Source: a virus
Reading direction: 5' to 3' (one strand)
Length of the DNA stretch: 39,104 nucleotides
IMG/VR virus record: IMGVR_UViG_3300002835_005806
Span: 1 to 39,104 of that record
Shown here: in pieces, positions 29,378 through 39,104 of the stretch
Layout of the letters: each line of letters opens with the position of its first letter
Numbering within the stretch: position 1 is the first letter of the stretch
Translations under genes and position numbers: made by a program
Notes under the pieces: model-generated
What the model was told of the DNA's origin: nothing
Databases searched by the model: none
What the model saw: the letters and a program-made list of their open reading frames with translations, nothing else

Positions 29378-30313
29378 ATGGACGACCAAATTCTTTGGGT
29401 AGAGAAGTATCGCCCTCGTAAAGTAGAAGATTGTATTCTTCCCGATAACATCAAAACAACATTTCAGGAGTATGTAGGCAGAAAAGAGATTCCAAATCTT
29501 CTTCTGTCTGGTTCTCCTGGTGTTGGAAAAACTACGATAGCAAAAGCACTTTGTAATGAAGTGGGTTGCGATCATATCGTTATCAATGGTTCTGACGAAT
29601 CGGGTATCGATGTTCTACGAAACAAAATCAAAAATTATGCATCAACAGTAAGCTTGACTGGTGGTAGAAAAGTCATTATTATTGATGAAGCTGATTATCT
29701 AAATCCAAATTCAACTCAACCTGCTCTACGTGGAGCGATTGAAGAATTTGCATCAAACTGTTCTTTCATTTTTACTTGTAACTTCAAGAATAGAATTATT
29801 GCACCTATTCATTCTCGTTGCACAGTCATTGATTTCAAGATCAACGGTAACAAAGCAAAACTTGCTGCACAATTTTTAAAGAGAATTGAATGGATTCTTT
29901 CTGAAGAAAACATCAAATACTCTAAAGATGTTGTTGCTGCTGTCATTATGAAGCACTTTCCAGATAATCGTAGAATTTTGAATGAACTTCAAAGATATGG
30001 TGTATCTGGAACTATTGATGAAGGCATTCTTGCTTCTGTTTCGGACATTCAAACTAAAGAACTGATCACAGCACTAAAAGAAAAAGATTTCGGTTCTGCT
30101 CGTAAATGGGTTACAAATAATCTAGATAATGATCCTACACTTGTTTATCGTAAGCTCTATGATAGCATGTATGATTATTTGAAGCCTAGTTCTATTCCTC
30201 AAACTGTCTTGATTCTGGCGAAATATCAGTATCAATCTGCTTTTGTTTCAGACCAAGAAATCAATCTTGTTGCCTGTCTGATTGAACTGATGGCAGATTG
30301 TGAGTTTGTATAA
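29378..30313 (+). CDS. 44: Clamp loader large subunit gp44
   Basis: A 311-residue AAA+ ATPase (T4: 319). WVEKYRPRKVEDCILP is the RFC-type N-terminus; Walker A is SGSPGVGKT (44-52), Walker B IIIDEAD near 104, and SRC (arginine finger) near 150. Four copies with one gp62 load the gp45 clamp. A GGAG ribosome site precedes the ATG. Its stop overlaps the gp62 ATG by one base. Confidence 0.96.
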   Translation: MDDQILWVEKYRPRKVEDCILPDNIKTTFQEYVGRKEIPNLLLSGSPGVGKTTIAKALCNEVGCDHIVINGSDESGIDVLRNKIKNYASTVSLTGGRKVIIIDEADYLNPNSTQPALRGAIEEFASNCSFIFTCNFKNRIIAPIHSRCTVIDFKINGNKAKLAAQFLKRIEWILSEENIKYSKDVVAAVIMKHFPDNRRILNELQRYGVSGTIDEGILASVSDIQTKELITALKEKDFGSARKWVTNNLDNDPTLVYRKLYDSMYDYLKPSSIPQTVLILAKYQYQSAFVSDQEINLVACLIELMADCEFV

Positions 30314-30702
30314 TGCCTGATCTATTCAAAGATATCGTACCATCGATTCTTCAGACCAAGCAGAATGTCTTGGTAGAAGAACATGATGAAAAAGACTATA
30401 ATTCGTATATCGTCAATCGGGCACTATCCTATCATTTAGACTGTGTTCCGTATGCGAATCAGATAAACCAGGTTCATTTTGTCGATAAAAAACTACAGTA
30501 TCACTATCTTCTAAATAGTATTAGGCAGATGAAACGAAAGTTTCAACCGTGGCAGAAGTCTGAGGAAGATAAGAATCTTGCTTGTGTGAAAGAGTATTTT
30601 GGGTATTCTGATAGCAAAGCCAAAGAGGCTCTCCGGATCTTATCTGATGAACAAATCGCTTATATAAAAACAAAAACAGATAAAGGCGGAGTGAGGAAAT
30701 AA
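30313..30702 (+). CDS. 62: Clamp loader small subunit gp62
   Basis: A 129-residue gp62-type protein, clearly shorter than the 187 of T4. MPDLFKDIVPSILQTKQNVL, YIVNRALSYHLDCVPYANQI and KFQPWQKSEED blocks identify it. It holds the gp44 subunits together. The C-terminus has CVKEYFGYSDSKAKEALRIL, a predicted helical pair. Start and end overlap gp44 and regA by one base each, as in T4. Confidence 0.9.
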   Translation: MPDLFKDIVPSILQTKQNVLVEEHDEKDYNSYIVNRALSYHLDCVPYANQINQVHFVDKKLQYHYLLNSIRQMKRKFQPWQKSEEDKNLACVKEYFGYSDSKAKEALRILSDEQIAYIKTKTDKGGVRK

Positions 30703-31106
30703 TGATTCGTATAGAAGATATGGTTGAAGTGACGCTAAATGAGAAAGATGATTTTCTGAAGATTCGTGAAACATTGACTCGTATTGGTGTTGCATCCAAA
30801 AAAGAAAAGTTGCTCTATCAATCTTGCCACATCTTACACAAGCAAGGAAAGTACTATATCGTACATTTCAAAGAATTGTTTGCGTTAGATGGCAAACCTA
30901 CGGATATTACGGAGAATGATCTGGCACGTAGGAATACGATTGCTTTGCTACTAGAAGATTGGGGACTCTTAAAACTTGTAAATGCAAAAAAAGCAGAGGA
31001 TCTACAAGTCAGCTTATCGCAAATCAAGATTATTGGTTTCCGTGAGAAAGACGAATGGCAACTAGTACCAAAATACAATATTGGTAAAAAAGCAAAAAAA
31101 GATTGA
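30702..31106 (+). CDS. regA: Translational repressor RegA
   Basis: A 134-residue RegA (T4: 122). LKIRETLTRIGVASKKEKLL, YQSCHILHKQGKYYIVHFKE and WQLVPKYNIG match T4 RegA almost motif for motif. It binds start regions of early mRNAs such as clamp and clamp loader and blocks ribosomes. Relative to T4 it has about six extra residues before MVEVTL, so ATG 30720 is an alternative start; ATG 30702 is coupled to the gp62 stop. The TGA stop lies inside the hsp20 promoter -35. Confidence 0.96.
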   Translation: MIRIEDMVEVTLNEKDDFLKIRETLTRIGVASKKEKLLYQSCHILHKQGKYYIVHFKELFALDGKPTDITENDLARRNTIALLLEDWGLLKLVNAKKAEDLQVSLSQIKIIGFREKDEWQLVPKYNIGKKAKKD

Positions 31107-31133
31107 CAAAAAATCCTTAGTGTGATATAAATA
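31103..31133 (+). promoter_or_regulatory. Dual early/late promoter before hsp20
   Basis: TTGACA (31103-31108), a 17-bp spacer and TATAAA (31126-31131) form a sigma70-type promoter. The same -10 extends into a perfect late box TATAAATA (31126-31133). One site could therefore serve host sigma70 and phage gp55. Confidence 0.82.
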
Positions 31134-31136
31134 TGA

Positions 31137-31161
31137 GTGTAGATGCCTTTCGGGTCTACAC
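31137..31161 (+). promoter_or_regulatory. 5'-terminal hairpin of hsp20 mRNA
   Basis: GTGTAGA (31137-31143) pairs with TCTACAC (31155-31161), with an inner CC/GG pair around TTTC. It lies where transcription from the promoter just upstream should begin, so the mRNA would start with this stem. A four-T run follows, so weak termination is an alternative reading. Confidence 0.7.
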
Positions 31162-31193
31162 TTTTATTAACTCGCTTAACTAAGGAGACTTTC

Positions 31194-31649
31194 ATGACTC
31201 TTGCTAATCTATTCCCTTCCCGTTCAGCTTATGAGCCATTTACTGTTGGTTTCGACAAGCTATTTGATCAGCTTCAAGATACCGCAAACAACATTGCAAA
31301 AAATGCTCCGAACTGGCCACCATATAATATCAAGAAAGTAAAAGACAACAAGTATGTCATTGAAATGGCAGTTGCTGGCTTTGCTAAATCTGATATTGAA
31401 GTTACCGTAGAAGGAAACAAGCTTGTTATCAAGGGTGCTTCTCAAGATAACGAAGCAGAAGATTACCTATTCAAAGGAATCGCTAATCGTGCGTTTCAAC
31501 GCACCTTCACTATTGCTGACAAAGTAGAAATCAAAGATGCAGAAATTGTTAACGGAATGTTAAGAGTTTGGCTAGAAAATCTTTACCAAACTCAAGAATC
31601 TGTTAAGAAAATTGCAATTAAAGACGCTACAGATACCAAATCTGAGTAA
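31194..31649 (+). CDS. hsp20: Small heat shock protein Hsp20 (IbpA-like)
   Basis: A 151-residue alpha-crystallin-type chaperone. The N-terminal arm has FPSRSAYEPFTVGFDKLFDQ, as in IbpA; the crystallin domain runs from PPYNIKK to about 135, with VIEMAVAGFAKSDIEV, GNKLVIKG and RAFQRTFTI; the usual A-G-L motif near the end of the domain appears as NGMLRVWLEN. Hsp20 is a hallmark of marine T4-like phages. ATG 31194 follows AAGGAG by 8 nt; an upstream in-frame ATG at 31143 falls in the leader hairpin. It has a dual promoter. Confidence 0.93.
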   Translation: MTLANLFPSRSAYEPFTVGFDKLFDQLQDTANNIAKNAPNWPPYNIKKVKDNKYVIEMAVAGFAKSDIEVTVEGNKLVIKGASQDNEAEDYLFKGIANRAFQRTFTIADKVEIKDAEIVNGMLRVWLENLYQTQESVKKIAIKDATDTKSE

Positions 31650-31659
31650 TGGCAATAAT

Positions 31660-31680
31660 GGTGGGGTGCAATGCCCCACC
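31660..31680 (+). terminator. GC-rich hairpin after hsp20 (terminator-like, no T tract)
   Basis: GGTGGGG (31660-31666) and CCCCACC (31674-31680) form a strong 7-bp stem 11 bp after the hsp20 stop. The following bases are TCTTGACA, so the T tract is lacking and the stem abuts the next -35. It may block 3' exonucleases or terminate weakly. Confidence 0.6.
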
Positions 31681-31682
31681 TC

Positions 31683-31711
31683 TTGACAATTGAGATTTGC
31701 TTTGATATACT
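31683..31711 (+). promoter_or_regulatory. Sigma70-type promoter, near-leaderless
   Basis: TTGACA (31683-31688), a 17-bp spacer and TATACT (31706-31711) with a TGA extension. The next ATG is at 31721, nine bases after the -10, so transcripts would begin within about three bases of the start codon. Confidence 0.85.
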
Positions 31712-31720
31712 ACATACATC

Positions 31721-31921
31721 ATGAAGAAAACTGTTCAAAAACCCAAAGAAATTCTACAAAAGGTCCGTAATCGACTTCACATTGATGAGGTCTATTATAC
31801 CTACTCTCATTGGCCCACAAAGGACATTGATGGTGTTACATTTCTTCCTATCATTAGAGAAATAAGTGAACATCCCAAAGTTTTTTATATGCGTAAAGAC
31901 AACTTGGAGTATATCAAATGA
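31721..31921 (+). CDS. Unknown small protein
   Basis: A 66-residue basic protein of no recognised family (KEILQKVRNRLHIDEVYYTY; TFLPIIREISEHPKVFYM). No signal peptide or membrane segment. It starts nine bases after a perfect-spacing promoter and so lacks a ribosome site. Its stop overlaps the next ATG by 4 nt, making a three-gene cascade with the two following ORFs. Early expression is likely; function unknown. Confidence 0.65.
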   Translation: MKKTVQKPKEILQKVRNRLHIDEVYYTYSHWPTKDIDGVTFLPIIREISEHPKVFYMRKDNLEYIK

Positions 31922-32136
31922 TTTTGAATAAATTATCACAGGCAATGTATAGCCGAAGAATTTTTAATCCTAAGAATAAAAAAGACTTAGATGCATATGG
32001 TTATTTTATTCGCAATAGCAAGTGGGAGAATGGTTGTCCATTCTGGCTTGAGTGGCCATATCAAAGTGTGCCTGCTATGATCAAAGATAAAATTGTTCGT
32101 GACATGTTTAATGTAGATAAGGAACAATTAGTATGA
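31918..32136 (+). CDS. Unknown small protein
   Basis: A 72-residue basic protein rich in aromatic residues (YFIRNSKWENGCPFWLEWPY, about 28-47) with KDKIVRDMFNV after it. It is not recognised. ATGA overlaps join it to both neighbours, so all three small proteins are probably made together from the promoter at 31683. A host-takeover role is a guess from size, position and promoter class. Confidence 0.65.
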   Translation: MILNKLSQAMYSRRIFNPKNKKDLDAYGYFIRNSKWENGCPFWLEWPYQSVPAMIKDKIVRDMFNVDKEQLV

Positions 32137-32408
32137 AAAGATACATGGTTGAAACTGTGAGTATTTTTCGACACCGTTATGTTGTTGAAGCCAAAGAATC
32201 AGATCATGCATGTGATGAAGTTATTTGCAATGATGGTAAACTGAAAGAGTTTTCTCAGTATCATGTAGATGAAAATATCTGGTCTGTTGCTGAACTTAAT
32301 GATGATCAAGAATACCTTGAGATGTTTGATATGGACAATGAATATCTCAAAGAATGGGATAACGAAAAGAAATTTTCATTCGTTAATAAGATAAACTACG
32401 AAGAATAA
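32133..32408 (+). CDS. Unknown small acidic protein
   Basis: A 91-residue protein: two beta strands at the start (YMVETVSIFRHRYVVEAKES) followed by an acidic helical part (SVAELNDDQEYLEMFDMDNE). The strand-helix layout with DHACDEVICNDG resembles small phage proteins of unknown role. It overlaps the preceding gene by 4 nt and its TAA is one base before tRNA-Arg. Function unknown. Confidence 0.65.
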   Translation: MKRYMVETVSIFRHRYVVEAKESDHACDEVICNDGKLKEFSQYHVDENIWSVAELNDDQEYLEMFDMDNEYLKEWDNEKKFSFVNKINYEE

Positions 32409-32409
32409 C

Positions 32410-32484
32410 TGGCGTTAGTACAAGGGATAGTACAGTGGCCTTCTAAGCCTCTGATCCAGGTTCGAGTCCTGGACGCCGGACCAA
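32410..32484 (+). tRNA. tRNA-Arg (TCT)
   Basis: Acceptor CTGGCGT pairs with ACGCCGG (one T-G pair); loop CTTCTAA gives anticodon TCT; T-loop TTCGAGT; CCA encoded. The anticodon stem has one mismatch. It reads AGA, a common codon in this genome. Confidence 0.93.
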
Positions 32485-32488
32485 GTAG

Positions 32489-32564
32489 GGCCGGAAGCTT
32501 AACTGGTATAAGCGTCCGACTCATAATCGGGGGACAGAGAGTTCGAGTCTCTCCCGGCCCACCA
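32489..32564 (+). tRNA. tRNA with CAT anticodon (Met, or Ile2)
   Basis: Acceptor GGGCCGG/CCGGCCC; loop CTCATAA gives CAT; T-loop TTCGAGT; CCA encoded. A second CAT tRNA lies at 37939, so one may be elongator Met and the other lysidine-modified Ile reading ATA; sequence alone does not settle it. The first pair is G-C, not the mismatched 1-72 of initiators. Confidence 0.93.
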
Positions 32565-32570
32565 ACAAAT

Positions 32571-33017
32571 ATGAAACAAAAATATATTAGAGCATACATG
32601 GATGTAGCAAAACGATTTGCTGAATTATCACCAGCAAAGCGGCTACATGTCGGCGCCATCATTGTCAAAGATGATAGGATTATCTCTATTGGCTATAATG
32701 GTATGCCACCAGGTTGGTCAAATATATGCGAAGATGTTACGGAAGAAGGAACACTAAAAACTAAGCCAGAAGTGATTCATGCTGAAGCTAACGCCATAGC
32801 TAAACTAGCAAAAAGCACAGAATCTGGCAAAGATGCTACCATGTTTCTTACTCATGCACCATGTATTGATTGTGCCAAGCAGATTTTTACTGCTGGTATT
32901 AATACTGTTTACTATGCTCAGGAATACCGTTCTACTGATGGATTACAGTTTCTAAGAAGATGTGGTGTGAACATTATATACACACCAGAGCCGTCAGAAG
33001 GGTCGGAGAGAGGTTAG
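32571..33017 (+). CDS. cd: Deoxycytidylate (dCMP) deaminase
   Basis: A 148-residue zinc deaminase (T4 Cd: 193). Zinc and catalytic residues are in HAEANA (His70, Glu72) and PCIDC (Cys98, Cys101). YNGMPPGWSNICED near residue 43 is the substrate loop. It converts dCMP to dUMP for thymidylate synthesis. The ATG is only 6 nt after the tRNA CCA end with no visible ribosome site, so initiation must depend on processing or coupling. It is shorter than T4 Cd, closer to the ComE-type core. Confidence 0.93.
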   Translation: MKQKYIRAYMDVAKRFAELSPAKRLHVGAIIVKDDRIISIGYNGMPPGWSNICEDVTEEGTLKTKPEVIHAEANAIAKLAKSTESGKDATMFLTHAPCIDCAKQIFTAGINTVYYAQEYRSTDGLQFLRRCGVNIIYTPEPSEGSERG

Positions 33018-33019
33018 AA

Positions 33020-33027
33020 TATAAATA
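33020..33027 (+). promoter_or_regulatory. Late promoter (TATAAATA) before metallopeptidase
   Basis: A perfect late box just after the deaminase stop and 30 bp before ATG 33058. The expected start near 33033 lies after ATG 33031, which argues against that upstream start. Confidence 0.8.
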
Positions 33028-33057
33028 CTGATGCTTAGGGTAACTAAAGGAAAACCC

Positions 33058-33567
33058 ATGCAATTCAGAATCAAAAAATGTCCAGATAAAGACTTCAGAC
33101 CATATGTTCTCGAAGCAGCCTCTTTTTTTGCAAAAGAATTAGTTCCTAGTGCAAGAATCCGTAATAACTGTAAAGTTACCATCAAGTTTAATCCTAAAAT
33201 AAACGAATATGGATATGCAAGTATCCAGAAGTTTAACAGCAGAAAACAGCCTAGACAATTTCTAATAGAAATACATTCTGGAATAGGAGCAAGAAATATA
33301 TTAGAAACCTTGGCTCATGAGATGATACATGTCAAACAATATATCATGAATGAAACTGACGATGGATTGACTAGATGGAAGAATAAGAAGATTAATTCTG
33401 AAAAAGTTGACTATTGGGATCACCCATGGGAAATAGATGCATATGGTAGAGAACAAGGATTGCTGTATAGGTTTACTGTGATGCATGAATTGTGGAATGT
33501 ATTTACGGAGTTCAAGAATCCTGCTGAACCAATAGTTTCAATTCCGATAAGATGGAAAATTAGTTAA
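33058..33567 (+). CDS. Zinc metallopeptidase (HExxH, SprT-like)
   Basis: A 169-residue protein with HEMIH (87-91) in LAHEMIHVKQY, the zincin motif; the Glu in HPWEIDAYGREQ near 125 is a likely third ligand. The overall layout resembles SprT or WLM-type peptidases. It has a late box, so it is made with virion proteins; it could be packaged, process a virion protein or attack cell wall peptides. No signal peptide. ATG 33058 follows AAAGGAAA and suits the late start point. A sigma70-type promoter follows the stop. Confidence 0.8.
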   Translation: MQFRIKKCPDKDFRPYVLEAASFFAKELVPSARIRNNCKVTIKFNPKINEYGYASIQKFNSRKQPRQFLIEIHSGIGARNILETLAHEMIHVKQYIMNETDDGLTRWKNKKINSEKVDYWDHPWEIDAYGREQGLLYRFTVMHELWNVFTEFKNPAEPIVSIPIRWKIS

Positions 33568-33585
33568 AAAACAACAAAAAAACCC

Positions 33586-33614
33586 TTGACAAATCAAAAA
33601 GTTTACTATATACT
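33586..33614 (+). promoter_or_regulatory. Sigma70-type promoter ahead of leader ORF and tRNA array
   Basis: TTGACA (33586-33591), a 17-bp spacer and TATACT (33609-33614). It is expected to start near 33621 and to transcribe the 31-codon ORF, the terminator and, on read-through, tRNA-Gln onward. Confidence 0.85.
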
Positions 33615-33647
33615 CTTAGAATATTAAATTTACTTAGAAAGCACGAA

Positions 33648-33743
33648 ATGTTGTCCATACATAAACCCATAACAAGTCAACCAGAGTATCGCACAATTAA
33701 TTGCGGCGATGCGTCATGGTTTACCCTCGGGGTCCGTGTATAG
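33648..33743 (+). CDS. 31-residue putative leader peptide
   Basis: ATG to TAG gives 31 residues, MLSIHKPITSQP... ending CGDASWFTLGVRV. It sits about 27 nt after the predicted start point with a poor ribosome site (AGAAAG). Its last codons (33723-33743) are GC-rich and contain GGGGTC, which is complementary to the 5' arm of the downstream terminator. That arrangement, with tRNA genes next, resembles an attenuation leader. It could also be a functional micropeptide. The attenuation reading is inference. Confidence 0.55.
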   Translation: MLSIHKPITSQPEYRTINCGDASWFTLGVRV

Positions 33744-33775
33744 ACTAGAAAGCTAAACTCTAAACACAAGACCCC
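33729..33775 (+). promoter_or_regulatory. Possible antiterminator pairing
   Basis: GGGGTC (33729-33734) can pair with GACCCC (33770-33775). The latter includes most of the terminator 5' arm, so the two structures exclude each other. A small ACCC-GGGT hairpin (33723-33733) could in turn free the terminator. Confidence 0.45.
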
Positions 33776-33798
33776 TAGCCAAAAGTTAGGGGTTTTTT
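33771..33798 (+). terminator. Intrinsic terminator before the tRNA array
   Basis: ACCCCTAGC (33771-33779) pairs with GTTAGGGGT (33785-33793), nine pairs with one G-T, followed by five more T residues. It lies 10 bp before tRNA-Gln. Confidence 0.88.
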
Positions 33799-33807
33799 GT
33801 TTACTGT

Positions 33808-33881
33808 TGGGATATAGTGTAACGGCAGCACCGCAGACTTTGACTCTGTTAGTCTAGGTTCAAATCCTAGTATCCCTGCCA
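33808..33881 (+). tRNA. tRNA-Gln (TTG)
   Basis: Starts TGGGATA as bacterial tRNA-Gln does; loop CTTTGAC gives TTG; T-loop TTCAAAT; CCA encoded. The 1-72 pair is T-T, consistent with the weak first pair preferred by GlnRS. Confidence 0.94.
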
Positions 33882-33889
33882 AGTTTTAA

Positions 33890-33977
33890 GGAAGTGTGGA
33901 TGAGTGGTTTAAATCAGCAGTCTTGAAAACTGCCGACTGTAAAAGGTCCGTGAGTTCGAATCTCACCGCTTCCGCCA
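33890..33977 (+). tRNA. tRNA-Ser (TGA)
   Basis: 88 nt, class II with a long variable arm. Acceptor GGAAGTG/CGCTTCC; anticodon loop CTTGAAA gives TGA; discriminator G and CCA encoded. Confidence 0.94.
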
Positions 33978-33990
33978 AATAGGAGAAGAA

Positions 33991-34116
33991 ATGAATACAG
34001 CAATCATACTATTAACAATACTGGGCTATTGGATAGCAATGGGTTTTACTATGGCTGCTGTGATGTTTATTTTTTATATGTTCGCTGTTATTATTGGAAA
34101 AATAATAAAGTCATGA
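33991..34116 (+). CDS. 41-residue single-span membrane protein
   Basis: ATG 33991 is preceded by AGGAGAAGAA. The 41 residues are almost wholly hydrophobic: TAIILLTILGYWIAMG, then AAVMFIFYMFAVIIG, ending KIIKS. This could be one long or two short membrane segments with a basic cytoplasmic tail. The TGA overlaps the next ATG by 4 nt (ATGA), so it is coupled to the glycosyltransferase. Such partners are seen with membrane-associated sugar transfer or holin-like functions; which one applies is unknown. Confidence 0.65.
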   Translation: MNTAIILLTILGYWIAMGFTMAAVMFIFYMFAVIIGKIIKS

Positions 34117-34733
34117 TAAGATTCAATGATTATGTTCATTATTTTTGGATAGGTAATGATAAAATACCCGATGAATATATCAAAAATTTTGAAGAAGCCA
34201 AATCATTGAATCCAACATATAATTTTATTATATGGAAAGAAGAAGATATAAAAGAACATATACCAGAATATATTGAACAATTTGAAAAAGGAACATTATT
34301 TCAAAAACTTCAATTAGGAAGTTATGGAATAGCAAATAAATTTGGAGGAATTGTAAGTCACTTTGATATAAAGTGGAAAAAAGATTTTGATTATGTATAT
34401 GATTGGTTTTGTTATCCAGTAGATATGATTTTTCCTTACAGAGAATCTGTTTATTTTTACAATAGAGGATTAGTTACAACTTTAGTTGATGATTTTGTTT
34501 TTATTACACGACCAAATTTGACTGGAGAATATATTAATTTTTGTCACTCACTAACAGATGATGATCCGGATGTTATTTCTACACATAACTCACATCCTTA
34601 TATGGTAAATTATTTGACAAAATGGTTAATGACAAAAAAGAATATAAAGTATTTTTCACACAAACAGATTGACAGAAGTGAAGATAGCATAATTGCAGTT
34701 CATGCTAATCATGGAACATGGAGAGTTGCCTGA
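34113..34733 (+). CDS. Putative glycosyltransferase, DXD/sugar-binding type
   Basis: A 206-residue protein. YVHYFWIGNDKIPDEYIKNF then NPTYNFIIWKEEDI is the start of the family that includes Och1-like and capsule glycosyltransferases. LGSYGIANKFGGIVSHFDIK follows where the family has G-G-x-Y-x-D-x-D; here the first Asp is replaced (HFD), so activity is uncertain. ATG 34113 overlaps the membrane ORF; the longer frame from 34029 lies inside that ORF. The last five codons and the TGA run into tRNA-Ser. It is AT-richer than its neighbours, suggesting recent gain. Confidence 0.7.
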   Translation: MIRFNDYVHYFWIGNDKIPDEYIKNFEEAKSLNPTYNFIIWKEEDIKEHIPEYIEQFEKGTLFQKLQLGSYGIANKFGGIVSHFDIKWKKDFDYVYDWFCYPVDMIFPYRESVYFYNRGLVTTLVDDFVFITRPNLTGEYINFCHSLTDDDPDVISTHNSHPYMVNYLTKWLMTKKNIKYFSHKQIDRSEDSIIAVHANHGTWRVA

Positions 34734-34807
34734 GTGGTTAAAGGAGCGGTTTGCTAAACCGTCGTTGCGAAAGTGACGCATAGGTTCGAATCCTATACTC
34801 TCCGCCA
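34720..34807 (+). tRNA. tRNA-Ser (GCT)
   Basis: 88 nt, class II. Acceptor GGAGAGT/ACTCTCC; loop TTGCTAA gives GCT; long variable arm; T-loop TTCGAAT; CCA encoded. Its first 14 bases are shared with the end of the glycosyltransferase gene. Confidence 0.94.
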
Positions 34808-34830
34808 GATTAAGAAAGGAGTACATATGA

Positions 34831-34899
34831 ATGGCTGCGATAGTAATCGTTATCATTTATTTACTCCTGTATTGGGTGTTTAAAAACGACCTTCGGTAG
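34831..34899 (+). CDS. 22-residue hydrophobic micropeptide
   Basis: AAAGGAG (34815-34821) is followed by ATG 34827 and ATG 34831. The second opens a 22-codon frame that is a single membrane span (AAIVIVIIYLLLYWVF) with KNDLR at the end. Its TAG stop is at positions 8-10 of the next tRNA. ATG 34827 would give 18 unremarkable residues. The clean hydrophobic pattern favours the second frame. Confidence 0.45.
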   Translation: MAAIVIVIIYLLLYWVFKNDLR

Positions 34900-34979
34900 C
34901 TCACGGTAGAGCAGGATGCCTTATAAGCATTTGTCCAGATAAGACCCAGGATGTGGTTCGACTCCACACCGAAGGACCA
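34890..34979 (+). tRNA. tRNA with TAT anticodon and long variable region (Ile-like, atypical)
   Basis: 90 nt. Acceptor CCTTCGG/CCGAAGG, D-arm GCTC/GAGC, anticodon stem GATGC/GCATT with loop CTTATAA giving TAT (Ile ATA codon), T-arm TGTGG/CCACA with TTCGACT, CCA encoded. About 20 nt separate the anticodon and T arms, including GTC-CAGATAA-GAC. That is a class II-size variable arm, unexpected for Ile. Identity is therefore uncertain. Confidence 0.75.
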
Positions 34980-34986
34980 GAACAAA

Positions 34987-35064
34987 GGTAAGGTGGCTGA
35001 GTGGCCCAAAGCAGCAGTCTGCAAAACTGTAAAACCGTCGGTTCAAATCCGACCCTTACCTCCA
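34987..35064 (+). tRNA. tRNA-Cys (GCA)
   Basis: Acceptor GGTAAGG/CCTTACC; loop CTGCAAA gives GCA; discriminator T, typical of Cys; T-loop TTCAAAT; CCA encoded. Confidence 0.94.
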
Positions 35065-35103
35065 GTTGCAAAAGTAGTAACATGTTGTATTTGTACAACA
35101 CGC

Positions 35104-35132
35104 TTGACAAAACGATTGAGCCAATGTACAAT
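35104..35132 (+). promoter_or_regulatory. Internal promoter in the tRNA array
   Basis: TTGACA (35104-35109), a 17-bp spacer and TACAAT (35127-35132) preceded by TG. It would transcribe tRNA-Glu, the structured block and tRNA-Lys onward. Confidence 0.75.
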
Positions 35133-35175
35133 GATGTTTCTGTAGTTGAGTTTCTTTAACAATTTGAGTTTCAGT

Positions 35176-35250
35176 GGACCGTTCGTCTATCGGTTAGGAC
35201 ATTGCCCTTTCACGGCAGTAAGAGGAGTTCGATTCTCCTACGGTCTACCA
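35176..35250 (+). tRNA. tRNA-Glu (TTC)
   Basis: Acceptor GGACCGT/ACGGTCT; D-arm starts TCGTCTA as in bacterial tRNA-Glu; loop CTTTCAC gives TTC; CCA encoded and continuing into the CCATATA hairpin. Confidence 0.94.
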
Positions 35251-35344
35251 TATAAAAACACTCTAAACTGGACGCAGGTTCTGTGAAGCAAGACCTCGGG
35301 GTCATGACCGAGAAGATGTGGAGAATAAGAGTGTTTCTATATGG
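35248..35344 (+). other. Long hairpin starting at tRNA-Glu CCA
   Basis: CCATATA (35248-35254) pairs with TATATGG (35338-35344); after an A-C mismatch, AAACACTCT (35256-35264) pairs with AGAGTGTTT (35328-35336). Inside is a second stem, CTCGG with CCGAG. The same outer design recurs after tRNA-Lys. Confidence 0.8.
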
Positions 35345-35591
35345 TTTCCGGTTACTACTTTCCATAAAGTAGCGTGTGGCGACGATAACTGACCCGGTGG
35401 CAGCAAACCGTTAGCGAGGCAACCCCTCAGGCACTGCTAGGCAGTATCTCTCTGCACACAGACACAGAATAAAAGAGATGGACAGGGTAACAACTCAGCA
35501 TAGGGGCTTGCCTGGAAAACAAGTGGCCTAAGCACTAATTATTTTTTTAAAGGAGACCTGTCATGGATAGTGACAAGAGTGGTAAGATAAT
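35345..35591 (+). ncRNA. Structured noncoding block A
   Basis: No long ORF. Visible helices: CTACTTT/AAAGTAG around CCAT, GAGG/CCTC, and CTGC-TAG-GCAG. A 22-nt core (35477-35498, starting GATGGACAGGG) is identical to one in block B. It runs into a hairpin (35498-35533): GC, A-A mismatch, TAGG, a GG/TGG internal loop, then CTTG/CAAG. The hairpin of block B has the same layout with different paired bases. A well-placed AAAGGAG and 12-codon ORF lie at its end. I infer a structured RNA of unknown class. Confidence 0.65.
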
Positions 35592-35601
35592 GGGTGCGTA
35601 A
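35563..35601 (+). CDS. 12-residue mini-ORF ending in tRNA-Lys
   Basis: AAAGGAG (35549-35555), a 7-nt gap and ATG open MDSDKSGKIMGA, closed by TAA at positions 8-10 of tRNA-Lys. Ribosome-site quality is as good as for real genes here. It may be a translated leader or chance; too short to judge by composition. Confidence 0.35.
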   Translation: MDSDKSGKIMGA

Positions 35602-35666
35602 CTCAGAGGCAGAGTAACCGGCTTTTAACCGGTAAGTCGAGATTTCGAAATTCTCCGCACCTACCA
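35592..35666 (+). tRNA. tRNA-Lys (TTT)
   Basis: Acceptor GGGTGCG/CGCACCT; loop CTTTTAA gives TTT; T-loop TTCGAAA; CCA encoded and part of the following hairpin. Confidence 0.94.
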
Positions 35667-35702
35667 TATAAAAGTATTTTGTATCAGAATATTTCTATAT
35701 GG
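35664..35702 (+). other. Hairpin linking tRNA-Lys 3' end to tRNA-Asp 5' end
   Basis: CCATATA (35664-35670) pairs with TATATGG (35696-35702); after an A-C mismatch, AAGTATT pairs with AATATTT. It takes in the tRNA-Lys CCA and the first two bases of tRNA-Asp, and repeats the outer design of the hairpin at 35248. Confidence 0.78.
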
Positions 35703-35777
35703 CACTTTAGTTCAGTTGGTTAGAACGCTGCCCTGTCACGGCAGAGGTCAGGGATTCGAGTTCCCTAAGTGTCGCCA
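35701..35777 (+). tRNA. tRNA-Asp (GTC)
   Basis: Acceptor GGCACTT/AAGTGTC; loop CTGTCAC gives GTC; discriminator G; T-loop TTCGAGT; CCA encoded. Confidence 0.95.
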
Positions 35778-35790
35778 AAAAGGAGACAAA

Positions 35791-36312
35791 ATGAAAATAT
35801 GTCCGAAATGTAATAAAGAACATGATAAATCTGGAAAGTTTTGCAACAGAAGTTGTGCTAATAGTAGAACTTGGACAGTTGAAGATAGACTGAAAAAATC
35901 AGATTCTATGAAAAAATATTTATTGAACAATGAACATCCATCAAAAGGTGCACCAGGATGGAAACACTCTAAAGAAATGAAAGAATTGAAGCGAATAAAA
36001 AGTTTAGAGTTTTGGGATAAAAAAGGAAGACTTCCAGAAGAACATGTAAAATTAAAAAATAAATTAGGTGTGAGTGCATATAGAGCAAGAAAATATAATG
36101 CAACACCAGAAAATGTAGATAAAAACTTAATTAAAGAAATATACAAAAAATGTCCTACAGGATATGAAGTAGATCATATAATTGCAATTGCTGATGGTGG
36201 TAAACATCATCCAGATAATTTGCAATATCTACCATGTTTAGAAAATAGAAAGAAAAATAAGTATCAGAATTATGATACTTCTCTTGTCGTAAAATGGCAA
36301 GATGTAATATAG
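35791..36312 (+). CDS. HNH endonuclease with zinc-finger start
   Basis: A 173-residue protein. A four-cysteine zinc ribbon (Cys4, Cys7, Cys18, Cys22: CPKCNKEHDKSGKFCNRSC) opens it; HNH is in YEVDHIIAIADGGKHHPDN (Asp128, His129) with LENRKKNKY behind it. A helical NUMOD-like middle part (AYRARKYNATPENVDKNLI) may bind DNA. AAGGAG lies 7 nt before ATG 35791; the frame upstream of it is within tRNA-Asp. Very AT-rich. It looks like a free-standing homing endonuclease inserted between tRNA genes; all tRNAs around it are intact. Confidence 0.88.
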   Translation: MKICPKCNKEHDKSGKFCNRSCANSRTWTVEDRLKKSDSMKKYLLNNEHPSKGAPGWKHSKEMKELKRIKSLEFWDKKGRLPEEHVKLKNKLGVSAYRARKYNATPENVDKNLIKEIYKKCPTGYEVDHIIAIADGGKHHPDNLQYLPCLENRKKNKYQNYDTSLVVKWQDVI

Positions 36313-36317
36313 TTTAT

Positions 36318-36395
36318 TGTGGGCTACCGTTCTAGGTGAGGCGGGTCTGACTGTTAATCAGAAATAGATTGGTTCGAATCCAATGCCCACAGCCA
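36318..36395 (+). tRNA. tRNA-Asn (GTT)
   Basis: Acceptor TGTGGGC/GCCCACA; loop CTGTTAA gives GTT; discriminator G; T-loop TTCGAAT; CCA encoded. Confidence 0.93.
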
Positions 36396-36402
36396 AGTTT
36401 TA

Positions 36403-36489
36403 GGGTGTTTAGTCCCGTAACGGTATCGGGGGATGACTGTAAATCATTTGTCTTAGACCTTCTCTGTTCGAATCGGAGAGCACCCACCA
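36403..36489 (+). tRNA. tRNA-Tyr (GTA)
   Basis: 87 nt class II. Acceptor GGGTGTT/AGCACCC; loop CTGTAAA gives GTA; variable arm with GTC-TTA-GAC; CCA encoded. Confidence 0.94.
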
Positions 36490-36509
36490 GAGTAGCGTGT
36501 GAGGCGGTC

Positions 36510-36584
36510 GGGGGATTGGCGTAATTGGAAACGCAGTAGCTTTGCAAGCTTCAGTCAGGAGTTCGAATCTCCTATCCTCCACCA
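36510..36584 (+). tRNA. tRNA-Ala (TGC)
   Basis: Acceptor GGGGGAT/ATCCTCC has the G3-T70 pair that marks alanine tRNAs; loop TTTGCAA gives TGC; CCA encoded and overlapped by a late box. Confidence 0.95.
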
Positions 36585-36590
36585 TAAATA
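36583..36590 (+). promoter_or_regulatory. Candidate late promoter overlapping tRNA-Ala CCA
   Basis: CATAAATA, one mismatch from the late box, shares its first bases with the tRNA-Ala CCA end. It is 28 bp before the peptidase ATG at 36619, the spacing seen at other late genes here. Confidence 0.6.
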
Positions 36591-36618
36591 TTTCTTTACA
36601 CATTACACAGAGAATTAA

Positions 36619-37362
36619 ATGAAACAATTATTTTTAACTTTATTTTTATTATTCTCATTAAATGTAAACGCTGCAACAACTTATGTTTATAATGTAACAA
36701 AGGATGAAGTGATTGAAGAATATGCATCAGATAAAATTAGACCGATTGCAAGTGTCACAAAATTAATGACTGCAATTGTTGTAATAGAAAGTGGTGCATC
36801 ATTAAATGAAAAAATACCTTATAGAGGTTTTGCAGGTAGAAAAGAAATGACTAGAGAGCAATTATTAAAATTGCTTTTAGTAAAAAGTGACAATAATGCA
36901 GCCGAAGCTTTAGCAAGAGGTTACCCAGGTGGTAGAATCTCATTCATTGCAAATATGAATCATAAAGCAAATGTATTAGGTATGACAAATACATCATATG
37001 AAGATCCTTCTGGTTTAGGAAGAAATAATTTAAGTAATGCAAAGGATTTGTCAATTCTATTGACATATGCGTACAACTATAGTACCATGAGAGAGTTGGC
37101 TGCATTAGAAAGTTTTAGTATTGAGAGTATTAGTAGAAAGAAAAGAAAACCTAGAGTGATAACGGTAAACAATACAAATTTTAATTTGTTAAAAGAATAT
37201 AAAGAAATTGTAATTTCAAAAACAGGATTCACTAATGCTGCTGGTAAATGTCTAGTAATGTACTTGACAAAACATGGCGAAAAATATACAATAGTGATTC
37301 TTGGTGAAAGAAATACAAAGACTATACAACAAGCAGGTAGAAAGATTATTGAAAGATTATAG
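36619..37362 (+). CDS. Secreted penicillin-binding-protein-like peptidase (S11, DacA/PbpG-type)
   Basis: A 247-residue protein with a signal peptide (MKQLFLTLFLLFSLNVNA, likely cut after Ala18) and all three active-site motifs: SVTK (45-48, nucleophile Ser45), SDN (90-92) and KTG (201-203). It resembles D-Ala-D-Ala carboxypeptidases or endopeptidases of the PbpG size class, lacking the PBP5 C-terminal domain and anchor. It should act in the periplasm on peptidoglycan stem peptides. The candidate late box suggests a role in lysis or wall weakening. The TAG stop shares its G with tRNA-Thr. Phage carriage is unusual. Confidence 0.9.
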   Translation: MKQLFLTLFLLFSLNVNAATTYVYNVTKDEVIEEYASDKIRPIASVTKLMTAIVVIESGASLNEKIPYRGFAGRKEMTREQLLKLLLVKSDNNAAEALARGYPGGRISFIANMNHKANVLGMTNTSYEDPSGLGRNNLSNAKDLSILLTYAYNYSTMRELAALESFSIESISRKKRKPRVITVNNTNFNLLKEYKEIVISKTGFTNAAGKCLVMYLTKHGEKYTIVILGERNTKTIQQAGRKIIERL

Positions 37363-37435
37363 CCGGTTTAGTTAAATGGTATAACAGTTGCCTTGTAAGC
37401 ATCAATCGTTGGTTCGATTCCATCAATCGGCACCA
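37362..37435 (+). tRNA. tRNA-Thr (TGT)
   Basis: Acceptor GCCGGTT/AATCGGC; loop CTTGTAA gives TGT; T-loop TTCGATT; CCA encoded. Its first base is the last base of the peptidase stop codon. Confidence 0.94.
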
Positions 37436-37776
37436 GAACCCCGCAGTCCCATCTGCGTTAATTAATGGGGGTAAATTGGCTTCACCACAACGCCAGGGTG
37501 CATACGATCAACGACCTCAAAGCCCGCTTGACATGGGTGATAGAAAAATCGTAAGTGGGTATCACACCTTGCTATAATAAATGTGATGGACAGGGTAACA
37601 ACTCAGTCTAGGGCTAATGGGGATTAGTAGCTAGACACCTTAGTTGTGTTATTTGTAAGCCCAGAAGGATAGGCGCCTAAATTTCAATCCGTTATGTAGG
37701 CCATTCAATAACTAGTTAGACCTAGGCAATCACTAGTGAGATGGTTAGATAGTACAGATAACACAACTAAGGTAAT
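37436..37776 (+). ncRNA. Structured noncoding block B
   Basis: No ORF of note. Helices: CGCAG/CTGCG nested in ACCCC/GGGGT, GGTGATA/TATCAC, then the 22-nt core (37585-37606) identical to block A. The core runs into GTCTAG, a GG/TAG internal loop and CTAAT-GGGG-ATTAG (37606-37636). A 21-pair helix with one G-T (37637-37657 with 37753-37773) closes a 95-nt domain and ends three bases before tRNA-Gly. A TGC-extended TATAAT at 37573-37578 could be a promoter or chance. Strong structure points to an RNA function, class unknown. Confidence 0.7.
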
Positions 37777-37850
37777 GCGGGATTAGTTTAATGGTAAAAC
37801 GAGAGCCTTCCAAGCTTGAGTCATCAGTTCGATTCTGATATCCCGCTCCA
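37777..37850 (+). tRNA. tRNA-Gly (TCC)
   Basis: Acceptor GCGGGAT/ATCCCGC; loop CTTCCAA gives TCC; discriminator T; T-loop TTCGATT; CCA encoded. Confidence 0.95.
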
Positions 37851-37856
37851 GTTTTC

Positions 37857-37933
37857 CTGAGTGTAGTTCAGCCTGGTAGAATGCCTGCTTTGGGAGCAGG
37901 AGGTCGGGAGTTCGATCCTCTCCACTCAGACCA
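37857..37933 (+). tRNA. tRNA-Pro (TGG)
   Basis: Acceptor CTGAGTG/CACTCAG; anticodon stem CCTGC/GCAGG with loop TTTGGGA gives TGG; CCA encoded. C1-G72 is usual for bacterial Pro. Confidence 0.95.
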
Positions 37934-37938
37934 ATATA

Positions 37939-38013
37939 GGTAATGTAGCACAATGGTAGTGCAGCACCTTCATACGGTGTGTGTTGGGAGTTCGAGTCTC
38001 TCCATTACCACCA
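37939..38013 (+). tRNA. tRNA-Met (CAT)
   Basis: Acceptor GGTAATG/CATTACC; loop TTCATAC gives CAT; T-loop TTCGAGT; CCA encoded. It differs clearly from the CAT tRNA at 32489, so the two may have different identities. Confidence 0.93.
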
Positions 38014-38015
38014 AA

Positions 38016-38091
38016 CGGTCCTTAGTAAAATGGATAATTACGGTAGGCTACGGACCTACAGGCGGGAGTTCGATTCTCTCAGGACCGGCCA
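38016..38091 (+). tRNA. tRNA-Arg (ACG)
   Basis: Acceptor CGGTCCT/AGGACCG; anticodon stem GTAGG/CCTAC with loop CTACGGA gives ACG (A34 normally edited to inosine by host TadA); CCA encoded. Confidence 0.94.
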
Positions 38092-38093
38092 AT

Positions 38094-38167
38094 TGTCCTG
38101 TAGTTAAATGGTATAACTGTCGATTGATAATCGACCATTACAAGTTCAATTCTTGTCGGGACAACCA
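38094..38167 (+). tRNA. tRNA-Ile (GAT)
   Basis: Acceptor TGTCCTG/CGGGACA; loop TTGATAA gives GAT; T-loop TTCAATT; discriminator A and CCA encoded. Confidence 0.93.
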
Positions 38168-38184
38168 ATATATTAGGAGTGAAC

Positions 38185-38406
38185 ATGTCAGATGGTGGTA
38201 AAGGAAGCAATCCTAGACCTTTTAGTGTAGATCAAAAAACATATGATGATAATTGGGATAAAATTTTTAAGAAAAACAATTATCAAGATGTTTTAAGTAC
38301 AGAAGATTGTGTGCTTGATGCATTGAAAGAAATGAATAGAGTTAGTGATGAATGTGGTGATTATATTACTAATGAAATAGACATTCCTAAAAATAACCCG
38401 GAGTAG
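38185..38406 (+). CDS. Small conserved-type phage protein (MSDGGKGS start)
   Basis: A 73-residue protein starting MSDGGKGSNPRPFSVDQKTY, with DDNWDKIFKK after it. This opening is familiar from small uncharacterised proteins of many tailed phages. The rest is acidic. AGGAG is 5 nt before ATG 38185 (GTG 38179 is inside the ribosome site). The last residues NNPE and the TAG stop are encoded by the start of tRNA-Trp. Function unknown. Confidence 0.75.
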   Translation: MSDGGKGSNPRPFSVDQKTYDDNWDKIFKKNNYQDVLSTEDCVLDALKEMNRVSDECGDYITNEIDIPKNNPE

Positions 38407-38470
38407 TATAATGGCAGTGCGGCGGTCTCCAAAACCGTTAGTGGGAGTTCGATTCTCTCCTCCGGGGCCA
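38397..38470 (+). tRNA. tRNA-Trp (CCA anticodon)
   Basis: Acceptor CCCGGAG/CTCCGGG; loop CTCCAAA gives CCA; discriminator G; 3' CCA encoded. Ten bases overlap the preceding ORF, whose TAG is tRNA positions 8-10. Confidence 0.95.
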
Positions 38471-38489
38471 ACAACTAAAAGGAGAAAAA

Positions 38490-38960
38490 ATGAAAAAATT
38501 AAATCTTGAGGAAGTAAAAAACTACATCCTAGCACAATCACCTGAAACTAAAATTTATCTTGGTGCTGACTCCGAAAGATTTAATATGAATGGTGTTTGG
38601 TATGCAGATTATACAACAGCGATTGTTGTACACATAGATGGTCGCCATGGATGTAAAATCTTTGGTGAAGTCACAAGAGAAAAAGATTACGATCAACGCA
38701 AGGATCGTCCATCGATGCGATTGATGAATGAAGTATATAAAGTATCAGAGCTATTTCAAAATCTTGCTGAAGTTTTAGAAGATCGTTATGTTGAAGTACA
38801 CTTAGACATTAACCCAAATGAAATGCATGGATCATCTTGTGTAATTCAACAAGCAGTTGGTTATATTCGTGGTACATGTAATGTGATACCTATGGTTAAA
38901 CCAAGAGCATTTGCGGCTTCTTATGCAGCAGATAGATTAAAGCAAGTTTTAGCAGCATAG
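38490..38960 (+). CDS. RNase H-like protein, DUF458/YkuK-type
   Basis: A 156-residue protein. IYLGADSERFNMNG (acidic residue after a first strand), YTTAIVVHIDGRHGCKIFGE, VEVHLDINPNEMHGSS and a final AASYAADRLKQ helix fit the YkuK/DUF458 predicted RNase H-like fold. Candidate active-site acids are in GADSE and HLDIN. An AAAAGGAG site precedes the ATG. Proximity to tRNA genes suggests RNA processing or repair, but that is inference; the family has no firm function known to me. Confidence 0.75.
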   Translation: MKKLNLEEVKNYILAQSPETKIYLGADSERFNMNGVWYADYTTAIVVHIDGRHGCKIFGEVTREKDYDQRKDRPSMRLMNEVYKVSELFQNLAEVLEDRYVEVHLDINPNEMHGSSCVIQQAVGYIRGTCNVIPMVKPRAFAASYAADRLKQVLAA

Positions 38961-38967
38961 TTTCAAT

Positions 38968-39043
38968 GGTAACCTTAGTGTAGTGGTCTGCACTTCTCGC
39001 TGTGACCGAGAAAGTATGAGTTCGATCCTCATAGGTTACCCCA
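38968..39043 (+). tRNA. tRNA-His (GTG) with encoded G-1
   Basis: The gene encodes the extra 5' G (38968) that pairs with C73, the histidine identity pair; the acceptor is otherwise GTAACCT/AGGTTAC. Anticodon stem TCTCG/CGAGA, loop CTGTGAC gives GTG; CCA encoded. Confidence 0.94.
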
Positions 39044-39049
39044 AGCAAT

Positions 39050-39104
39050 GCATCGTTAGTTCAGTGGTAGAATCCCTGCCTTACAAGCAGGTTGTCGGTG
39101 GTTC
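39050..39104 (+). tRNA. tRNA-Val (TAC), cut by window end
   Basis: Acceptor 5' strand GCATCGT, D-arm, anticodon stem CCTGC/GCAGG with loop CTTACAA giving TAC, and the start of the T-arm are visible. The rest lies outside the window, so the array continues. Confidence 0.88.

Follow-up and report, generated by a model that had tools for sequence, protein, structure and literature searches.

Expression of the tRNA array in the IMG/VR record IMGVR_UViG_3300002835_005806 is, in all likelihood, governed by a ribosome-mediated attenuator of the trp type that ties the array to the supply of every charged tRNA. The anatomy of this leader region, its conservation, the coevolution of its pairing segments, the amino acid coverage of the encoded peptide and the correspondence between this coverage and the tRNA array are shown below. 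It is inferred, without expression data, that the region acts as a switch, in which direction it acts and that it serves to counter tRNA depletion, caused for example by host-defence anticodon nucleases or by host shut-off.

Anatomy of the leader region and its array

The window (the whole stretch of DNA that was analyzed, 39,104 nucleotides) contains T4-type genes, and its clamp loader shares 61-63% identity with the counterparts in Stenotrophomonas phage DLP_6 and Methylophilales phages Melnitz. The window carries at least 20 tRNA genes. The leader region directly follows a gene for a SprT-like metallopeptidase, in the order promoter P1, leader ORF, terminator and tRNA-Gln, and comprises the following elements together with the array:

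33586..33614, + strand: P1, a sigma70-type promoter (TTGACA, 17 nt, TATACT); consensus, kept before the leader in relatives
33648..33743, + strand: leader peptide ORF of 31 codons, MLSIHKPITSQPEYRTINCGDASWFTLGVRV, with all 20 amino acids; forms a family in relatives and shows an excess of third-position substitutions
33651..33719, + strand: predicted sensing zone, codons 2-24 (through Trp24); from stall folding, inferred from a ribosome 3' edge at A-site nucleotide +12
33653..33743, + strand: extended hairpin (segments 1:2) in which segment 2 is buried when the leader is not translated; folding prediction only
33729..33744, + strand: segment 2, the 5' strand of the antiterminator, consisting of the last four codons plus stop, GGGGTCCGTGTATAGA; from pairing and stall folding
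33759..33775, + strand: segment 3, UCUAAACACAAGACCCC, the partner of segment 2; its 3' portion doubles as the terminator's 5' arm; from pairing and stall folding
33768..33796, + strand: intrinsic terminator stem-loop (segments 3:4), followed by TTG; 12 pairs, -16.3 kcal/mol
33808..33881, + strand: tRNA-Gln(ttg), the first gene of the controlled array; from tRNA gene detection
33890..39043, + strand: remaining tRNA array with interleaved small ORFs; isotypes in order Ser, Ser, Ile, Cys, Glu, Lys, Asp, Asn, Ala, Thr, Gly, Pro, Met, Arg, Ile, Trp, His; one more tRNA beyond it is truncated by the window end

The original prediction, made from sequence alone, had proposed a leader-peptide attenuator composed of a consensus promoter at 33586-33614, a 31-codon ORF at 33648-33743, a terminator at 33771-33798 followed by tRNA-Gln, and a complementarity of GGGGTC (33729-33734) to GACCCC (33770-33775). 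Promoter, ORF, tRNA-Gln and complementarity were all confirmed as predicted, and the terminator held within three bases of its slightly longer stem. P1 matches 11 of 12 consensus bases and is among the four best such sites in 9 kb, with promoter-like consensus sites overall showing no excess (36 found versus 32.7 expected by chance). No other terminator-like stem on either strand of 30000-39104 is as long as that of the terminator. GGGGTC and GACCCC form the base of a 19-bp antiterminator hairpin (33726-33777). For the 57-nt antiterminator stretch the folding energy is -19.6 kcal/mol (z -3.8), matched by 1 of 200 shuffles, and the complete leader (33620-33806) folds at -55.7 kcal/mol (z -5.6), which none of 200 shuffles equalled.

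Attenuators of the trp/his type are recognized by a short leader ORF between promoter and operon, an intrinsic terminator ahead of the first gene, a mutually exclusive antiterminator and leader codons that match the operon product. The ORF is in place, its translation being inferred and not measured. The terminator precedes the first gene in the window as well as in relatives, and the antiterminator, whose 5' strand includes the last codons of the ORF, is conserved with compensating changes. Matching codons were found for near-complete and for small arrays alike. Runs of codons for a single amino acid, which are typical of this class although not universal, are absent from the leaders, and the system is therefore a variant rather than a typical member of it.

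Several further features were observed in and around the array. A T4-type late promoter motif (TATAAATA, 33020-33027) adjoins the SprT-like gene on its upstream side. Between tRNA-Glu and tRNA-Lys, about 250 bases (35340-35590) without a clear ORF resemble a structured RNA, but have no Rfam match. Inverted repeats (CCATATAAAAACACTCT...AGAGTGTTTCTATATGG) occur between tRNA genes at 35248-35345 and 35664-35705 and also in L019, L026, and L045; they might be processing hairpins of the tRNA precursor.

Leader peptides of related phages

As the leader peptide is too short to serve as a query, loci of relatives were retrieved with the neighboring SprT-like gene as anchor, and eight scans of viral contigs yielded ~480 loci. 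A detector blind to composition, which requires a terminator, a segment upstream that is complementary to it and an ORF that ends at this segment, was applied to the first 299 sequences. It reported 84 distinct ORFs, 25 of them with 20 and 15 with 19 amino acids, the others being spread over 11-18. Later, tRNA-anchored versions found ~77 distinct leader peptides upstream of tRNA arrays of uncultivated T4-like phages. Frame-shifted or gene-end ORFs reported by the detector (e.g., MYWEPLV..., MKLDYLPS...) were excluded by inspection. The leader was present in 81 of 87 loci with at least 15 tRNAs versus 26 of 149 with fewer, near-duplicate loci being counted. One of the six large-array loci scored as leaderless, L336, has a GTG-started leader missed by the detector, which we read by eye as holding 20 amino acids. 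Large arrays without a leader occur in at least two lineages (L300/L014/L015 and L329/L481). The leaders share descent, so that these counts are not independent, and start codons are ambiguous in some of them. Missing conservation of the ORF or of the pairing in relatives would have refuted the original prediction; ORF, pairing and terminator are all conserved. With its elements recurring in diverged phages, pairing specific to the own partner and an ORF under coding constraint, the predicted attenuator ahead of the tRNA array is strongly supported.

Searches of cultured phages by tblastn with four leaders gave no matches or only chance matches inside coding regions of unrelated phages, and neither five cultured phages that carry tRNA clusters nor three further annotated phages have such a terminator near a tRNA. 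A scan of genome contigs retrieved 10 SprT relatives, none with such an array, and no SprT relative was found on plasmids.

The P1-type promoter is kept in front of the leader in relatives. In many relatives, among them L017/L204, L247, L267, L305, and L314, a distance of 6-7 nt separates the -10 box from the leader start codon, and the leader mRNA is therefore predicted to be leaderless. In L371/L372, the terminator and the ACACGAACCC segment are kept after the SprT gene and the leader is gone, possibly a stage in the decay of the attenuator. Directly after the SprT gene of L047, L050, L316, L317, L319, and L324, a conserved tRNA-like element (ATGCGGTCGGGGTATAGAACC...CACCGCTCCA) with its own promoter was noted. 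It is not called by ARAGORN and could be a degenerate tRNA or another small RNA.

The window peptide accommodates every amino acid within 31 codons with minimal redundancy. Random 31-residue stretches of the long ORFs of these phages contain all 20 amino acids at a frequency of 6e-5. Among distinct ORFs of 28-44 codons in the loci, complete sets occur in 18 of 48 leaders versus 13 of 6,621 others, and three of these 13 are actually leaders. This leader set had been pre-filtered for at least 15 distinct amino acids or a typical ending; the unbiased count is that of the composition-blind detector. Coverage of 19 or 20 amino acids is found in strongly differing sequences, such as EYRTPFIGSDNQSWAHG in one group, NQPMYHTESICADTLW in another, and MLPSLIHADYTKQSTLCGWINTRPVFLENRAGVL in L485, where the leader precedes a 24-tRNA array located elsewhere in the genome, ~5 kb away from the SprT gene. 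Substitutions in the leader ORFs fall on codon positions 1, 2, and 3 in the proportion 49/55/96, and this third-position excess shows coding constraint on the ORF. Across 26 independent pairs of related leaders, a residue present as the sole copy of its amino acid was changed in 38 of 576 cases versus 160 of 854 for redundant residues (odds ratio 0.44 within amino acid, z -3.7). For 25 of the 38 changed sole copies, the partner leader carries the same amino acid elsewhere.

The composition of the leader also follows the content of the array. Phages with a leader mostly possess 23-29 downstream tRNAs covering 18-20 amino acids, and relatives with only 4-13 tRNAs have shorter leaders enriched for the amino acids of their own tRNAs. 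In 13 hand-listed small-array phages, cognate amino acids are present in 74 of 86 cases and non-cognate ones in 68 of 161. Permutation of the arrays among nine representatives gave p about 5e-5 for counts and 3.5e-4 for presence; these values are only indicative, given the relatedness of the phages and the manual placement of the sensor limits at the conserved Trp. L381, for instance, combines the leader MKNLHITTSNYYNTSGTWCSGVRL with tRNA-Trp, Tyr, Thr, Gly, Asn, and Met. The near-twins L291 and L293 show that a Trp codon in the leader accompanies the gain of tRNA-Trp in a relative: L291 (MKFNFTNLPLLNLPVQRGVLL; Leu, Pro, Thr, and Met) has neither, and L293 (MKFNLTNLPTLNLPVWQRGFLL; Leu, Trp, Pro, Thr, Asn, and Met) has both. 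The match is imperfect, as several small-array leaders lack cognate Glu, Gly, or Arg and L393 has a 19-amino-acid leader despite an array of eight isotypes.

Segment pairing and the proposed switch

Segments 2 and 3 pair preferentially with their own partners. Self pairing averages -17.2 kcal/mol compared to -12.8 kcal/mol with partners from other phages, and after shortening of segment 3 to the 12 bases that precede the terminator stem the values are -6.8 (self) and -5.3 kcal/mol (cross). With either version of segment 3, none of 5000 permutations reached the observed mean.

When only the RNA left free by a stalled ribosome was folded, the antiterminator was predicted in the window for all A-site codons through Trp24 and for none from codon 25 onward. 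The predicted boundary between on and off thus lies at the conserved Trp just before segment 2, and at a similar place in most relatives. Val, which the window peptide contains only within segment 2, and Phe25, located at the boundary, may escape sensing. Without translation, segment 2 is predicted to be buried and termination to follow. At equilibrium, once the terminator has been transcribed, the terminator fold is more stable even with segment 2 free. The choice must therefore be kinetic and be made while segment 3 emerges. Such a kinetic choice during the emergence of segment 3 is the accepted logic of trp attenuation.

In the proposed mechanism, transcription would begin at P1 and a ribosome would read the 31-codon leader. 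With all tRNAs available, it would arrive at the stop codon and cover segment 2, so that segments 3 and 4 would pair and transcription would terminate before tRNA-Gln. If any one tRNA is short, as predicted for codons 2 to about 24, the ribosome would stall and leave segment 2 free to capture the emerging segment 3; no terminator would form and RNA polymerase would enter the array. That starvation relieves termination is an inferred step, and the earlier claim that translation decides between antiterminator and terminator likewise remains an inference, as there are no RNA or reporter data. According to this model, the leader is an amino acid "pangram" because it controls an array with a nearly complete set of tRNAs. 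In small-array phages, the leader would be trimmed toward the amino acids of their own tRNAs, and the product would remove its own inducing signal. The original prediction had missed the 20-amino-acid peptide, the long hairpin and the tracking of array content by leader composition; these three features identify the likely signal.

In many relatives, a second promoter and a boxA-like motif are located between terminator and tRNAs, and the attenuator is therefore not the sole route of expression; P1 probably represents one of two inputs to the array. A second promoter together with a boxA-like motif (GTTCTTTAAAA), which resembles the boxA of rRNA operons and mostly lies 26-32 nt before a tRNA gene, was observed at 35104-35175 in the window and in L300, L301, L302, L303, L305, L307, L308, L311, L312, and L314, upstream of tRNA-Gln, Ser, or Glu. 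It is conceivable that phage tRNA arrays use rRNA-type antitermination.

Alternative explanations, known systems, and meaning

The strongest competing explanation is an ordinary attenuator that responds to a single amino acid or to a few, such as Trp, or to a general slowing of ribosomes by inhibitors, with the 20-amino-acid content as a by-product. In its favor, Trp stands directly ahead of segment 2 in most families and is near-universal at this place, the leaders are enriched 2.6-fold for Trp and 3.2-fold for Cys over genes, and the generic version of the original prediction requires no amino acid specificity. Nevertheless we consider it unlikely, because repeated-codon runs are absent, widely differing leaders, that of L485 at another genome place included, reach 19-20 amino acids, sole copies are protected from change, and small arrays come with matching small sets, Trp being absent from both leader and array in L291. 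A functional small protein, with the terminator as a mere gene end and an incidental complementarity, would account for the coding constraint and for an own promoter and terminator. However, the peptide families have no overall shared sequence and yet keep their coverage, stop position and pairing to the terminator arm, and this pairing is specific to the own partner, which makes this reading very improbable.

We regard as likewise very improbable a structured non-coding RNA or a ligand-binding riboswitch with the ORF as a chance frame. The strong fold of the free leader (z -5.6) would agree with it, but no Rfam family, T-box included, scored above threshold, and third-position bias and amino acid coverage require translation. 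Finally, a chance arrangement without function could draw on the frequency of promoter-like sites (36 found, 32.7 expected), but is refuted by conservation: the same arrangement occupies the same place in dozens of diverged phages and its pairing coevolves, so that this possibility is all but ruled out.

The attenuator favored here resembles the trpL, hisL, pheL, thrL, leuL, and ilv leaders in its short ORF, segments 1:2, 2:3, and 3:4, intrinsic terminator, predicted exposure of segment 2 by a stall and kinetic choice. In contrast to these leaders, which respond to one amino acid and control biosynthetic enzymes, the phage leader would in principle sense all amino acids, or those of its own array, lacks single-codon runs and controls tRNA genes, the product being the sensed tRNA itself. 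T-box riboswitches also respond to tRNA charging and control a terminator, but bind uncharged tRNA directly and have no ORF. A T-box was rejected, as the T-box covariance model gave no match at gathering score in the window and none up to E 5 in 33560-33890. In erm, vmlR, bmr, and whiB7-type attenuators, translation of a uORF likewise sets downstream expression, but their main signals are drugs or a single amino acid, and their targets are resistance genes. Leaders of the ermC type respond to global translation slowdown (PMC2965389); to our knowledge, no leader of the erm, vmlR, bmr, or whiB7 type is selected for amino acid coverage.

Large phage tRNA sets have been proposed, or have been shown, to substitute for host tRNAs that come under attack in the course of infection, as in mycobacteriophages of the C1 cluster (PMC10264068) and in retron evasion by phage tRNA (PMC11555353). 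For the C1 cluster arrays, no regulated expression was described, and attenuation, leaders and promoters were not mentioned (PMC10264068). The open-access literature searched contained neither a leader peptide controlling phage tRNAs nor a leader selected for all amino acids.

A bolder reading, which we hold to be probable, is that these leaders form a whole class of phage attenuators, selected to include at least one codon for every amino acid, or for those served by the phage's own tRNAs. They would act as a general alarm for tRNA depletion that releases a near-complete replacement set, presumably as insurance against tRNA-cleaving host defences or tRNA decay during infection. Leader composition and operon content are linked closely enough to predict one from the other. 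If true, attenuation would be extended from one amino acid to all twenty, and the leader would offer a ready-made reporter for a shortage of any charged tRNA. It has long been an open question for what reason phages carry tRNAs and at which time they use them; the attenuator, if confirmed, would explain the timing and render the idea of "tRNA insurance" testable. A sensor for all amino acids would then imply that these phages expect any tRNA to become limiting and answer with the full set.
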